63,897 nucleotides of DNA from Bacteroidota bacterium (GTDB lineage: Bacteria; Bacteroidota; Bacteroidia; Bacteroidales; Prolixibacteraceae): positions 1-63,897 of the forward strand of contig JAUYMU010000091.1 of assembly GCA_030698405.1 (NCBI GenBank), in the 5' to 3' direction. The notes under the pieces were generated by a model. It was not told the origin of the DNA. It saw only the letters and a program-made list of their open reading frames with translations, and made no database searches. Made by a program: the position numbers and the translations under genes. This document shows, one piece after another, positions 58,948-63,897 of the stretch (position 1 is the first letter of the stretch; each line of letters starts with the position of its first letter).

Positions 58948-59006
58948 AAGGAAAAATGATTGTCCGTTTGCAAACCTGACCGGTATTTTGTGGCTGGCAA
59001 TTGTGG

Positions 59007-59060
59007 TCATTTGGTAGTCATTCTGTTGTGATTTCGGGTAACTTAATGACTACCAAATGA
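59007..59060. terminator. Long inverted repeat between dpp7-type and kinase genes
   Basis: TCATTTGGTAGTCATT (59007-59022) and AATGACTACCAAATGA (59045-59060) are perfect 16-bp arms with a 22-base loop between two convergent genes. No long T-run follows, so it could be a terminator or another structured element. Confidence 0.6.
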
Positions 59061-59108
59061 CTTTTGACATTTGGTAAATTCACGGATACTCACAAAGGAA
59101 ATCAGTTG

Positions 59109-61253
59109 TCAGGTTGTCGTTGCAGGCAATGTAAATGAAACAACAGTGCCTTTATCTTTTTCGCTGTCTATTGTGATCGTTCCTTTGTTTTTCTCTATAA
59201 AATCTTTGACGAGGATTAACCCCAAACCGGTACTCTGTTCATCTTCAGTGCCGGTGGTATGATGTGTATTGCTAAGATCAAATATTTTTGAGAGCGATGA
59301 TTTTGCAATTCCAACCCCATTGTCTGTAATGCTGATATTTGCGTTATTCATGTTATTGACATCGGTTTTGATGATTACCGAACCGCCCCTGGGAGTGAAT
59401 TTAATGGCATTGCTGAGTAGATTGCGCACAATGGTCTGAGCCATGTTGGGGTCAGCCAGCACAAAAATCTCATCATTTAGTTCAAATCTGATATCAATCT
59501 GTTTGTTATCGGCAGATTGTTTTAAGCCTTTTATCGAATTTTGAATCACATCGGTTAGTTTCAATTCCGTCGGATTGAATTCAATTTTGTTTAATTGTGA
59601 TTGCGCCCAGATAAGCAGATTCTCCAGCAATACACTTACACTTTCTGCTGATTTATAAAGTGTCAATAATATTTTTTTTAATTCTGCCGGGCTGTGATCA
59701 TTAAATGTTTCGTTGAGATACTCGAGGAAAACAGCAAGATTCCCGGTTGGTCCGCGCAAATCATGTGCAATGATGGCGAAAAATTTGTCTTTCGCAGCGT
59801 TGGTTTCCTTTAGCTGGAGGTTTTTATTCCGGATTTGATGGGCAAACCAATAGATGGATATGGAAACTAAAAATGCTACAACGATTCCAAAAATCATAAT
59901 TAATTGTGAAATCCTTTGTTGTTTGATTATAAGGGAGTTAATTTCGTTTTGTTTTTCCAGCTCTATAATCTGCCCGTTTTGTCTGTCAAGTTCATAAATC
60001 GCCTGCAACTGCTCAATTTTTATGTTTGCAGCGCCCGAAAGAATTAAATCCTGAATTTCAATTTGTTTTTTCTGGCTACCAATTGCATTTTCAAGATCAT
60101 TGATGCTCAAATAAACTTCGGTCAACTTTAGATAAATGTTTAACTGGATTTTCGTTTGGTTGTTTGCTATAGCCAAATCCAAGCCTCTGTTTAAACTTTT
60201 AAATCCCTCATCTATTTGGCCTTTTCCAATAAGGCACAATCCGAGGTACTCATATATAGTGGGCAAACTAAGTACGTCGCCAACTTTATTTTTTATCCTG
60301 AGTGACTCATTTAAATAATTTTCAGCCAGCTCATAATTTCCCATTGAATATTCAATCATACCAAGGTTCTTTTGGGAGTTTGAAAGGCCATATTCTGATT
60401 TATTGGCGGTATATATTTTCAATGTATTATCAATGTACTTATGTGCTTCCTTGAAATTACCCGATTCTAATTTGAGTAATCCAATCTGTTCATAACAAAT
60501 AGCTACTCCGTTTTGGTTTCCATCAACAGAAGCCATTTTTGTATATATTTCCAGTGCCTCCTGAAAATATTCAAGCGCTTTTTGAGGGAGTTTTAAGTCA
60601 GAGTATATCCGTCCCAAAATATATGCTGACCAGGCATTGCCCTCTGAAAAGCCTGCTTTTTCATAATTTAGCTTTGAGTTGACGATGTACTCTATTGCTC
60701 TGTCATATAGTCCGTTTACCCTGAATATAGTTCCCATCATTGAGTAGGAAGAACCCATGATTTTGAAATTGTTCGATAACCGGCAGGCCTGAAGAGAGGC
60801 ATTAAAATACTCAAGTGCATGTATTTCGTCCCTGCGATTGTACGTAATTACACCCTTACGAAGCAGTATTTCTCCTTTGTACCAATTATCACCTGAAACC
60901 GCTACGATTGTTAAGGCTGTATCATAATAAGCCTCAGCAAAATCCTTGTTATTCATTACGTCATATACTCTTCCCAGTACAAAATAAGCGCGCATTTCCA
61001 GGTTTTTATTTTTCGCAGTTTTTGCAGCAGATAGCGCAGAATTTGCCAGTTCCTGTGACTCAGGTTTTTCAGTTTCCATGATTCGAAGGGCAAGTTCCAA
61101 TTGAGTGGCGATTTTATCGGATCCTTTCTTGGTATTTAGTTCTTTACGGAGACTGTCTGTTTGGGTAAAGGCAGATTTTTCCTGAGAGGAGGCTGAGTAA
61201 GCAATCACAACGGTTAATACAAATAGAAAAGACCAGATAATATTTTTATTCAT
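59109..61253 (-). CDS. TPR-containing sensor histidine kinase
   Basis: The 714-residue protein has a signal peptide, about eight tetratricopeptide-like helix pairs (residues about 40-390, for example SAYILGRIYSDLKLPQKALEYFQEALEIY), a coiled coil, one membrane helix (about 452-474), and a kinase core with His497 in AIIAHDLRGPTGNLAVF, NLLSNAIKFTPRGG and STGLGLILVKDFIEKNKG. The TPRs would lie in the periplasm and may sense protein or peptide ligands. No response regulator lies adjacent. Confidence 0.9.
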   Translation of the reverse strand: MNKNIIWSFLFVLTVVIAYSASSQEKSAFTQTDSLRKELNTKKGSDKIATQLELALRIMETEKPESQELANSALSAAKTAKNKNLEMRAYFVLGRVYDVMNNKDFAEAYYDTALTIVAVSGDNWYKGEILLRKGVITYNRRDEIHALEYFNASLQACRLSNNFKIMGSSYSMMGTIFRVNGLYDRAIEYIVNSKLNYEKAGFSEGNAWSAYILGRIYSDLKLPQKALEYFQEALEIYTKMASVDGNQNGVAICYEQIGLLKLESGNFKEAHKYIDNTLKIYTANKSEYGLSNSQKNLGMIEYSMGNYELAENYLNESLRIKNKVGDVLSLPTIYEYLGLCLIGKGQIDEGFKSLNRGLDLAIANNQTKIQLNIYLKLTEVYLSINDLENAIGSQKKQIEIQDLILSGAANIKIEQLQAIYELDRQNGQIIELEKQNEINSLIIKQQRISQLIMIFGIVVAFLVSISIYWFAHQIRNKNLQLKETNAAKDKFFAIIAHDLRGPTGNLAVFLEYLNETFNDHSPAELKKILLTLYKSAESVSVLLENLLIWAQSQLNKIEFNPTELKLTDVIQNSIKGLKQSADNKQIDIRFELNDEIFVLADPNMAQTIVRNLLSNAIKFTPRGGSVIIKTDVNNMNNANISITDNGVGIAKSSLSKIFDLSNTHHTTGTEDEQSTGLGLILVKDFIEKNKGTITIDSEKDKGTVVSFTLPATTT

Positions 61254-61470
61254 CTTTTTATAATACTTAAAAATCCAGAATAGAGACTGTAAAAAGTGAT
61301 GTTAGATATTTGTAATCAAGTTGTTAGTTTGCAAACATCTAATTAGATGCAATCATATTCAGGATGAAAAATAAGAATAAAAGCTGAGAAATTAGTAAAG
61401 AGTTGTTAATGCCTGCTTTGCAAATAGTAATATTCCTTTAGTGGTGGTGGTTTATTTCTTGTTCACGTGA

Positions 61471-61929
61471 ACCACGGGTAACCAGAGCCAATCGCTAGAA
61501 GAAGTCGATAAAATTCGAGACATCATTACACATCTTCTTAGTGCTGGCTTGACCTGGACTGACAGAGTAGGAAGGACATTTCCTTCAGAAGAAAAAGATA
61601 TTCTCATAATTGCCCCATATAACGCTCAAGTCAGTGTTCTAAAAGAGGCACTACCTCAAATATCTGTAGGAACCGTTGATAAGTTTCAAGGACAGGAAGC
61701 CTCGGTTGTTATCTATTCAATGACCAGTTCATCACCACAAGACGCTCCAAGAGGAATGAGTTTTTTGTACAGTCCGAACCGATTGAATGTGGCAACCAGT
61801 CGCGCCAAATGTATTAGTATTCTTGTTGCATCTTTGAATTTGTTTGAGGCAGAATGTAATACCATTGAACAAATGAGATGGGCAAATGGCTTGTGTTTAT
61901 ACAGAGAAATGTCCACAGAGATAACATAA
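61471..61929 (+). pseudogene. C-terminal remnant of a TM0106-type RecB-like nuclease/SF1 helicase
   Basis: The open frame runs from a stop at 61468 and carries helicase motifs V (VGTVDKFQGQEASVVIYSM) and VI (NRLNVATSRAK), preceded by NQSQSLEEVDKIRDIITHLL and WTDRVG, and ended by SLNLFEAECNTIEQMRWANGLCLYRE. The tail resembles TM0106-family RecB-like nuclease/helicase proteins of 1,000 residues or more, so only the last 150 residues remain. There is no start codon at the true 5' end. The break coincides with the palindrome GTTCACGTGAAC (61461-61472). Confidence 0.75.
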
Positions 61930-62104
61930 AATACGGTACTGAAGATCCGTCCGATAGGAAAAATAGTAAAAGTATTGGGAGTGTAAATTAAACTCTGTCT
62001 GATTTAAGGGTACTTCAGAAAATTTCTTGCTAAACGTCGTTATATGCTGAATAGTATTCATTTATTAATCTTGTCGTTATTTGTTGTCTGTAGTCATTTG
62101 GATT
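61930..62104. other. Gap between the helicase remnant and the BrxL-like gene
   Basis: About 175 bases of AT-rich DNA with no gene, repeat or terminator that I can support. Confidence 0.5.
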
Positions 62105-63715
62105 TCAATCAATTTGCCGGATATAGGTTATTTCACAATTCCTGCATTGCCGTTGTTCCTGCATTACATCAGATATATCAAAACGAAAGGCTGGTTTCTC
62201 AAAAATATCAAGTCCACGACCGAGTTTTATTTTCCAACCATTATTTGCAACAATGCTGCGATCATGTAGATCCTGAAATTCATAACTGAAGATGATTCCG
62301 GAATCCCTCAAAGATTCCTTTATTTCATCAAAGTTGGCAGTTGATGTGGGAGTATATTCTATGTCGTTCCATGAGACAATATGCAAATTTACTTCTTCCT
62401 CCTTTTTTTTGTTCTGAATAAGTATCGAACAGAATTCTAACAGATTGCGGAATTGATGCGGATGTCGTATGTATGGATCAGTCAATGTAATTTCTGTAGC
62501 TCCTTTAAGATAATCACCAAATAGCTTCTTATAGGAGATTCCTTTTTGATTATCCCTAATAATGATTTCTTTCTCTTTAAGTTCTGGTACAATTATTTCA
62601 GCTTTGACTGCTGATTTATCCGGATCTTCAGTCGAAGAGATTTCTTCAGCACCATCTATTGTTTCTCCATTTAACTTTTCAAGGGTTTCGATCTTTATTT
62701 TTTTGTTGGATGAATTGATTTTGTAACTGAATTCAACAGGAGAATCCTTAAATGTTTCGTCAATCACATAAAGCTGATCCTTGACTCTTTTCCGCCCTTC
62801 TACTGCAAAATCAATCAGTTCAAGTGCTTCTTTTTCACTCATCTGTTTGTTTGGGTAAATTAGCTTTACCAGACCTGAGAATGTTTTCCGGATTGCTAAT
62901 TTATCTCTGCCCGTATAGGACGGATCAAAGTCAACATACTGATCAACCAGATTGGTATAATCGTACTTTCGGAACTGCTTCAGAATTTCTGCCAAATAAT
63001 CAACAATGAAACCAAACTCTTTAGAGAATACACTTTCCTTTAGGATATTGACTTCCCATCCAGGAATATAAAGATGAATTCTATCGAGGAATGCTCCTTT
63101 GATATATGCTGCCGGGATGGATTCAAAAAGATGAGTCTCGCGGAGCATGAAAGGAACGGTGTGCTTTGTGTTTCCTACAAATGCCATAGAAGCATAGGCT
63201 TGAATGGTTTCTTTTCCTCTGTTGAATGATTTATTTGCCATGTAATTTTGCATGATATTGACCATGTCGCCATCTGCACGTTTTGAGCCAACCACTTGTT
63301 CAAATTCATCCAGACAAATCACATCCCAATACCCAACTAATCCGATTTTGCCTTTGCCAGTATTGCTTACAAAAAGCCGGGCACTGGTCACATCGCCACC
63401 TGAAACTAAAACTCCATGAGGCGAAAGTTCTGAAAAGACATGAGATTTACCGGTTCCTTTGGGCCCAAGTTCGATGAAGTTATAGTTGTTCTCAACATGG
63501 GTAATCAGTCTTGATAACTGAATCAATTTTCCCCTCCGGTTGAAGAATTCAGGATTCAATCCGATACTATGCATTAGTAAATCAATCCATTCGTCGGTAT
63601 CAAAATGCTGTCGTTTTTCGATTATTTCTTCCAAATCGACTCCTGAAACCTGAATCGGTTTTACGGTTTCTATGACCCATCTGGACTTGATCCCATCGGA
63701 GGAATCGTATCCCAT
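62105..63715 (-). CDS. BrxL-like AAA+ protein with MITD1-like C-terminal domain, 5'-truncated
   Basis: The 536-residue frame matches the middle of BREX protein BrxL: TDEWIDLLMHSIGLNPEFF, AAA+ Walker A GPKGTGKS (84-91), Walker B ICLDEFE, sensor Asn182 in FVGNTKHTVPF, Arg finger Arg212 in FLDRIHLYIPGWE, and EGRKRVKDQL near residue 305. Instead of the Lon protease domain it has a C-terminal part (about 395-536) with ITLTDPYIRHPHQFRNLL and LHDRSIVANNGWKIKLGRG, then EKPAFRF, strongly like the phospholipase-D-like domain of MITD1. The frame stays open upstream to a stop at 63824 and BrxL homology continues through KKLLSGGGVWCIL, so the N-terminus is lost; translation may restart at Met 63715. Confidence 0.8.
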   Translation of the reverse strand: MGYDSSDGIKSRWVIETVKPIQVSGVDLEEIIEKRQHFDTDEWIDLLMHSIGLNPEFFNRRGKLIQLSRLITHVENNYNFIELGPKGTGKSHVFSELSPHGVLVSGGDVTSARLFVSNTGKGKIGLVGYWDVICLDEFEQVVGSKRADGDMVNIMQNYMANKSFNRGKETIQAYASMAFVGNTKHTVPFMLRETHLFESIPAAYIKGAFLDRIHLYIPGWEVNILKESVFSKEFGFIVDYLAEILKQFRKYDYTNLVDQYVDFDPSYTGRDKLAIRKTFSGLVKLIYPNKQMSEKEALELIDFAVEGRKRVKDQLYVIDETFKDSPVEFSYKINSSNKKIKIETLEKLNGETIDGAEEISSTEDPDKSAVKAEIIVPELKEKEIIIRDNQKGISYKKLFGDYLKGATEITLTDPYIRHPHQFRNLLEFCSILIQNKKKEEEVNLHIVSWNDIEYTPTSTANFDEIKESLRDSGIIFSYEFQDLHDRSIVANNGWKIKLGRGLDIFEKPAFRFDISDVMQEQRQCRNCEITYIRQID

Positions 63716-63801
63716 GGTTAAAATACACCAGACGCCTCCTCCGCTTAATAATTTTTTATGAGTATCCGGTTGTGTACCTAAATAGTTAAATATTGAGCGA
63801 T

Positions 63802-63830
63802 TATCCTTTGCCGTTGACTTTAGTCAACGG
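63802..63830 (+). repeat. TATCCTTTGC-hairpin repeat, copy 3
   Basis: TATCCTTTG is followed by the palindrome CCGTTGACT/TT/AGTCAACGG. It coincides with the point where the BrxL-like reading frame loses homology and meets a stop codon. Bases 63831-63897 add GGGCTTTAGCCC (63853-63864) and GGCTAAAGCC, further palindromic repeats; no gene is visible there. Confidence 0.7.
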
Positions 63831-63897
63831 TTGAAGGGGAAATGTGACACATGGGCTTTAGCCCAATGCACTGTGGCTAAAGCCTTTCACCGTGGTC

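Follow-up and report, generated by a model that had tools for sequence, protein, structure and literature searches.

Described BrxL proteins and the present locus

In the cited section of PMC10164562, the solved BrxL of LonP type uses its N-terminal and AAA+ domains to form rings on DNA, two of which are joined tail to tail through its C-terminal domain. In the section cited of PMC12839542, a survey of 2026, 1030 of 2913 Type-1 BREX taxa with BrxL display an HKD-type domain where LonP would otherwise stand, with an arginine substituted for the lysine of the motif. From the place of the domain, its fold class and its motif as given there, we take this HKD-type class to be the MIT_C family (PF16565). 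That family is listed among BREX genes in the relevant part of PMC12715929, which credits an earlier study; in the portions of texts covered, our literature search brought up no other paper that connects MITD1 or MIT_C to BREX or BrxL.

The window considered here (the whole stretch of DNA analysed, 63,897 nucleotides) is an entire contig, C58, of a genome from the Prolixibacteraceae, whose assembly stopped inside a dispersed repeat. The feature adjoining this repeat is interpreted, with a probability of about 0.87, as the 3' remnant of a brxL gene from a Type-1 BREX operon, belonging to the sub-type with MIT_C instead of LonP, which lost its 5' end at the repeat and is most likely non-functional (Table 1).

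The fusion of a BrxL AAA+ domain with MIT_C is an already described BREX variant and not a new one. The sequence-only reading did not treat it as a characterised system, though it allowed for its presence in databases; the design is in fact documented by the PADLOC BrxL profile PDLC02508, of which positions 144-695 (of 698) aligned to residues 6-534 of the open reading frame, by the NCBI annotation, which labels plasmid proteins of the same design brxL, and by the cited parts of PMC12839542 and PMC12715929. Together with the plasmid operons described below, the profile, the annotation and PMC12839542 rule out an undescribed system. Like the BrxL proteins with a C-terminal HKD/MIT_C domain (PDLC02508; cited section of PMC12839542), the window protein combines the AAA+ part with a PLD-fold domain replacing LonP; in contrast to them, it is devoid of the first 139 residues, no other BREX gene was found in its genome, and it displays asparagine for the aspartate of the HKD position, as do 10 of 37 aligned rows. 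The window copy itself, a degraded specimen of this known variant, matters little.

Table 1. Features at the end of the window (residues are those of the 536-aa frame unless indicated)
Feature	Position	Strand	Remarks
Helicase C-terminal fragment	61549-61929	+	AAA_12 positions 108-193 of 195; best PADLOC profile MkoA
3' part of brxL (536 aa)	62105-63715	-	Residues 140-675 of intact G011 brxL, 96 % identical
MIT_C / PLD-fold domain (PF16565)	62117-62542	-	Residues 392-533, Pfam 2.2e-44
BrxL AAA+ ATPase domain (PF13337)	62741-63679	-	Residues 13-325, Pfam 9.1e-122
Residual brxL coding DNA upstream of internal ATG	63716-63757	-	In frame, without ATG/GTG/TTG start
Part of dispersed inverted-repeat element	63758-63897		Occupies expected place of brxL 5' end

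Domain organisation of the remnant

The open reading frame starts at an internal ATG. A span of 62105-63800 had been given for it at first; the frame is real, but the end at 63800 overshoots the start codon. Its AAA+ part was attributed to BrxL by the sequence-only reading and this was confirmed here, both by the BrxL_ATPase match and by NCBIfam TIGR02688 (4.5e-117, above its cut-off); TIGR02653, a BrxL model of 675 positions, aligned with the AAA+ stretch only and remained below its cut-off. The MIT_C match was full length (profile positions 1-142 of 142), and the three C-terminal motifs quoted beforehand were all present in the translation. Residues of this domain comprised D413-P-Y-I-R417, Q421, H484-x-R486-x4-N491, G-R-G-L-D503 and R522-x-C524. 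The reported absence of Lon residues also held, since no Lon_C family was found in the frame at E<=1 with a Pfam library that did detect Lon_C (6e-16) in another BrxL, the second one of the sister genome G011 described below. Neither BrxL_N nor a MIT domain was matched by Pfam in the window frame, and the loss of the brxL 5' end had been missed by the earlier reading.

Distribution of the fusion

MIT_C matches (E<=0.001) were encountered in 30 of the 395 genomes surveyed from the phylum, 27 being above cut-off. Among the 26 matches of at least 129 bits, 24 lay in open frames of 673-709 aa; the remaining two were the window gene (frame of 572) and locus L089 (1070). Six further matches were weak (<=48.8 bits) and located in other frames. 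In L089 (790-3411), MIT_C of the 1070-aa frame was followed by Sel1 repeats (11 stretches), and the available stretch displayed no BrxL ATPase match.

When the window frame was compared by BLASTP with the fetched loci, 49 frames matched, of which 36 spanned the query from <=60 to >=480 and covered both domains. These 36 corresponded to 33 distinct genes by place, as genes were shared between loci L047 and L058 and among L035, L048 and L059. The other 13 were partial at a locus end, had another C-terminus or matched in the MIT_C part only (L089). Of the 13 genome_contigs loci, 11 displayed PglZ directly upstream of brxL, and the other two started inside brxL. Among these 11, the C-terminal domain is not complete in five: the contig stopped short of MIT_C in L044-L046 and within it in L037 and L041. 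The survey of genomes proposed by the sequence-only reading did reveal that the fusion recurs with BREX neighbours.

Plasmid records were searched as well: 322 out of 72,556 held a match. In 22 of these, a single place accounted for 80 % or more of the query, and the best 20 covered 97-100 %. The three plasmid operons examined all displayed the same order, namely DUF1819 (brxA), DUF1788 (brxB), brxC, pglX, pglZ and brxL. In viral contigs no relative was confirmed by a scan sensitive to close relatives alone, and no relative of the C-terminal domain was found in phages.

Fold and conserved residues of the MIT_C domain

The resemblance to MITD1 claimed from the sequence was borne out by profile and by fold. 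With the C-terminal 146 residues as query against PDB sequences, phmmer returned human MITD1 (4a5z, 2ymb) at ~1e-28 as the sole significant match, the next one being at 0.78. The structure model of the whole 536-aa frame was poor (pLDDT 61.6) and was left aside. For the domain, the AlphaFold prediction from nine sequences reached a pLDDT of 81 and a pTM of 0.79, with domain residues 117-136 below pLDDT 50. Its top five Foldseek matches were all MITD1 (E 2e-12 to 1e-11, TM up to 0.79 by query length, rmsd 3.3-4.1), and PLD-fold enzymes came next, Zucchini first at E 0.002. The profile and AlphaFold/Foldseek checks that had been suggested confirmed both domains, and the C-terminal one displays an MITD1-like PLD fold. 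Residues DPYIR, HDR, NNGW and GRGLD were shared with the C-terminal domain of human MITD1; the match includes no AAA+ part.

The domain alignment consisted of 38 rows (BLASTP relatives at E<=1e-3, identical rows dropped) and leans to close relatives. In it, D413, R417 and Q421 were invariant in 38 out of 38 rows, R486, G493, W494, G501, L502 and D503 in 37 out of 37, and R522 and C524 in 36 out of 36, while H484 was found in 36 out of 37. Judged from the alignment, such conservation says that the pocket probably does something, without pointing specifically to a nuclease.

The HKD motif is H-x-K-x4-D, and the window protein deviates from it by displaying H-x-R-x4-N. In the published reading, MIT_C is proposed to be an active HKD-type endoDNase that degrades the phage DNA bound by the BrxL ring; the cited section of PMC12839542 puts this forward from sequence and structure, by way of an HRD motif. 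The nearly constant histidine, the aspartate encountered at position 491 in 26 of 37 rows and the PLD-fold enzymes that follow MITD1 in Foldseek are consistent with it. However, the usual lysine is replaced by arginine in all 37 rows, position 491 is N in ten of them (window protein included) and S in one, human MITD1 also displays N at this place in the phmmer alignment, and no PLDc family of Pfam matched the C-terminal domain at E<=1. The printed "HKD" reading of MIT_C-type BrxL rests on a motif whose aspartate is asparagine in 10 of the 37 aligned sequences, and we consider DNA cleavage plausible at somewhat less than even odds.

The domain may otherwise be a structural clamp that replaces the LonP-like domain, pairs two BrxL rings and holds a DNA or phosphate ligand in its pocket without cutting. 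MIT_C occupies the same place in the chain as the LonP-like domain, which joins the rings in the solved BrxL (cited section of PMC10164562), and its catalytic set is altered, both of which suit a clamp; on the other hand, the invariant D, R, Q, R, D, R and C, accompanied by a histidine in 36 of 37 rows, seem to exceed the needs of a dimer surface. We regard the clamp as a tentative possibility. By analogy with the LonP type, the BrxL rings of intact relatives would form on DNA through the N-terminal and AAA+ domains, MIT_C would take the place of the domain that joins two rings, and the conserved H-x-R-x4-[D/N] and D-P-Y-I-R residues would make up a pocket that binds phosphodiesters and either cuts DNA or grips it. 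For the C-terminal domain of these relatives, we consider an action on DNA phosphodiesters or the pairing of BrxL rings the most likely role.

The nearest solved structure is MITD1, the PLD fold of which is reported to bind membranes (title of Hadders 2012); this BrxL class may cut DNA, hold DNA or bind something else. The sequence-only reading had envisaged that lipid binding by MIT_C, as in MITD1, ties BREX to the membrane, where immunity would then act. The family and fold are indeed those of the MITD1 domain, for which PI(4,5)P2 is given as ligand in a review table (cited part of PMC9776629). Human MITD1, however, works at midbodies in cytokinesis and has an N-terminal MIT domain, which is what ESCRT-III subunits bind (cited part of PMC9477494), and such a domain finds no match in the window frame; the operon partners that were identified belong to BREX and serve to modify and restrict DNA. 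Nothing beyond MITD1 homology spoke for immunity at the membrane, and a membrane tie is very unlikely. It is somewhat speculative, but conceivable, that a module binding phosphodiesters or phosphoinositides has passed between phage-defence systems and the cytokinesis machinery of eukaryotes; if the module is shared by both, a ligand found in one would be testable in the other.

An intact orthologue in a sister genome

Genome G011, of the same genus and assembled as one contig, contains an intact brxL (L047, L057, L058) at the end of a BREX operon, in contrast to the 5'-truncated window copy; the two proteins are 96 % identical over all 536 residues. The G011 protein is 675 aa long and composed of BrxL_N (residues 11-142), BrxL_ATPase and MIT_C, and the window frame starts at its residue 140. 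Its N-terminal and AAA+ parts align with the solved BrxL structures (8emc, 8emh) over query residues 5-484, whereas the C-terminus of the latter is LonP-like, another fold (cited section of PMC10164562), and the window copy is without the N-terminal domain. The operon displays the complete Type-1 BREX gene set in the order brxA-brxB-brxC-pglX-pglZ-(PLD protein, DUF6088, AbiEii)-brxL, where BrxC was identified by its Pfam helical domain and PglX is an Eco57I-type methylase.

The genes between pglZ and brxL (L057:14701-17532) encode a PLDc_2 protein of 392 aa and a DUF6088/AbiEii pair. Near the operon, a 1803-aa protein without Pfam match at E<=0.01 is encoded at L058:2598-8009; a phage-integrase-family gene is located in the same stretch. 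A second BrxL of G011 (L056:1027-3081; G011:C1 near 3063087) is 685 aa long and displays BrxL_N, BrxL_ATPase and Lon_C, so that one genome holds both C-terminal types of BrxL.

Probable loss of the 5' end and search for the other BREX genes

In the assembled sequence, brxL is cut at 63757/63758, where the inverted end of the dispersed element is located and the repeat takes over from the 139 missing N-terminal residues. DNA identity with G011 extends from 62097 to 63760, and BLAST alignments to some other copies of the repeat reach slightly into the brxL side, to 63744. One copy (C17:28453-28657) is 205 bp long with 11-base inverted ends. The element displayed at least 48 matches in its own genome, itself included (E<=0.001; 40 of 88 candidates scored), and several contigs of the assembly begin or end at an element of this type. 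An intact brxL continuing beyond the contig end was rejected, as the assembled gene gives way to the repeat at 63757-63760. Simple insertion of the repeat into brxL was not supported either, because the DNA search of the assembly (40 of 58 candidates scored) found no brxL 5' part. The gene would have been the last of a Type-1 BREX operon, and its 5' end would have been lost, together with BrxL_N, at the repeat (63758).

The rest of BREX was not recovered from the same genome, in which a single BrxL was found and brxA, brxB, brxC, pglX and pglZ were not found alongside. No brxC was detected with the BrxC profile (none in the one genome; the same profile matched in 2 of 14 genomes as a control). 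BREX-type pglZ was not found either, the sole match of the PglZ profile being a response-regulator/PglZ fusion of 518 aa, which we take to be PorX-like. The operon DNA of G011 (14,251 bases, including the 5' part of brxL), by which alone brxA, brxB and pglX were sought, yielded one match among the 40 of 58 candidates scored, that is 140 bases at 71 % in the AbiEii part. The missing genes could sit on a contig that the assembly, with its 138 contigs and a completeness of 99.84 %, does not include. With a 5'-truncated remnant and no other BREX gene found, immunity from the window copy is unlikely.

A simple codon count between the window and G011 brxL gave 113 synonymous and 20 non-synonymous changes and no frameshift in the remnant. 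For the whole remnant pS was 0.33 and pN 0.016, compared to 0.30 and 0.003 in the AAA+ part and 0.47 and 0.029 in the MIT_C part. Strong constraint over most of the divergence from G011 implies a recent break; continued use of the fragment is a less likely alternative. That the truncated frame is a domesticated short protein still in use, composed of AAA+ and MIT_C without the N-terminal domain, is highly improbable: the frame was kept open at a pN/pS of ~0.05 relative to G011, but the codon at which it could first start encodes an internal Met of brxL and lies 42 bases from the repeat, further BREX genes were not found, and the divergence includes the time before the break as well as the G011 branch. 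For the window copy, the most likely interpretation is a BREX remnant of recent origin and without function.

Neighbourhood of the remnant

The helicase fragment next to the remnant (Table 1) is probably a second decayed gene beside brxL. Further inward, the histidine kinase region displayed a long DNA match in seven out of 22 relatives. As the longest of these ends at 61439, the part of the contig from 61440 onwards gives the impression of a variable stretch of defence genes in decay. No known RNA family was detected in 61200-63897 at gathering score. Contigs C58 and C70 may possibly be joined, being identical over 75 bases at their ends; two other contig ends, however, differ from these by one base only, and in four relatives no C70 match was found in the stretches (2.6 to 6.7 kb) adjoining the histidine kinase. 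Another short dispersed repeat is located at 58950-59090, between a peptidase S46 gene and the histidine kinase, with many matches in its own genome and in relatives of the same genus.
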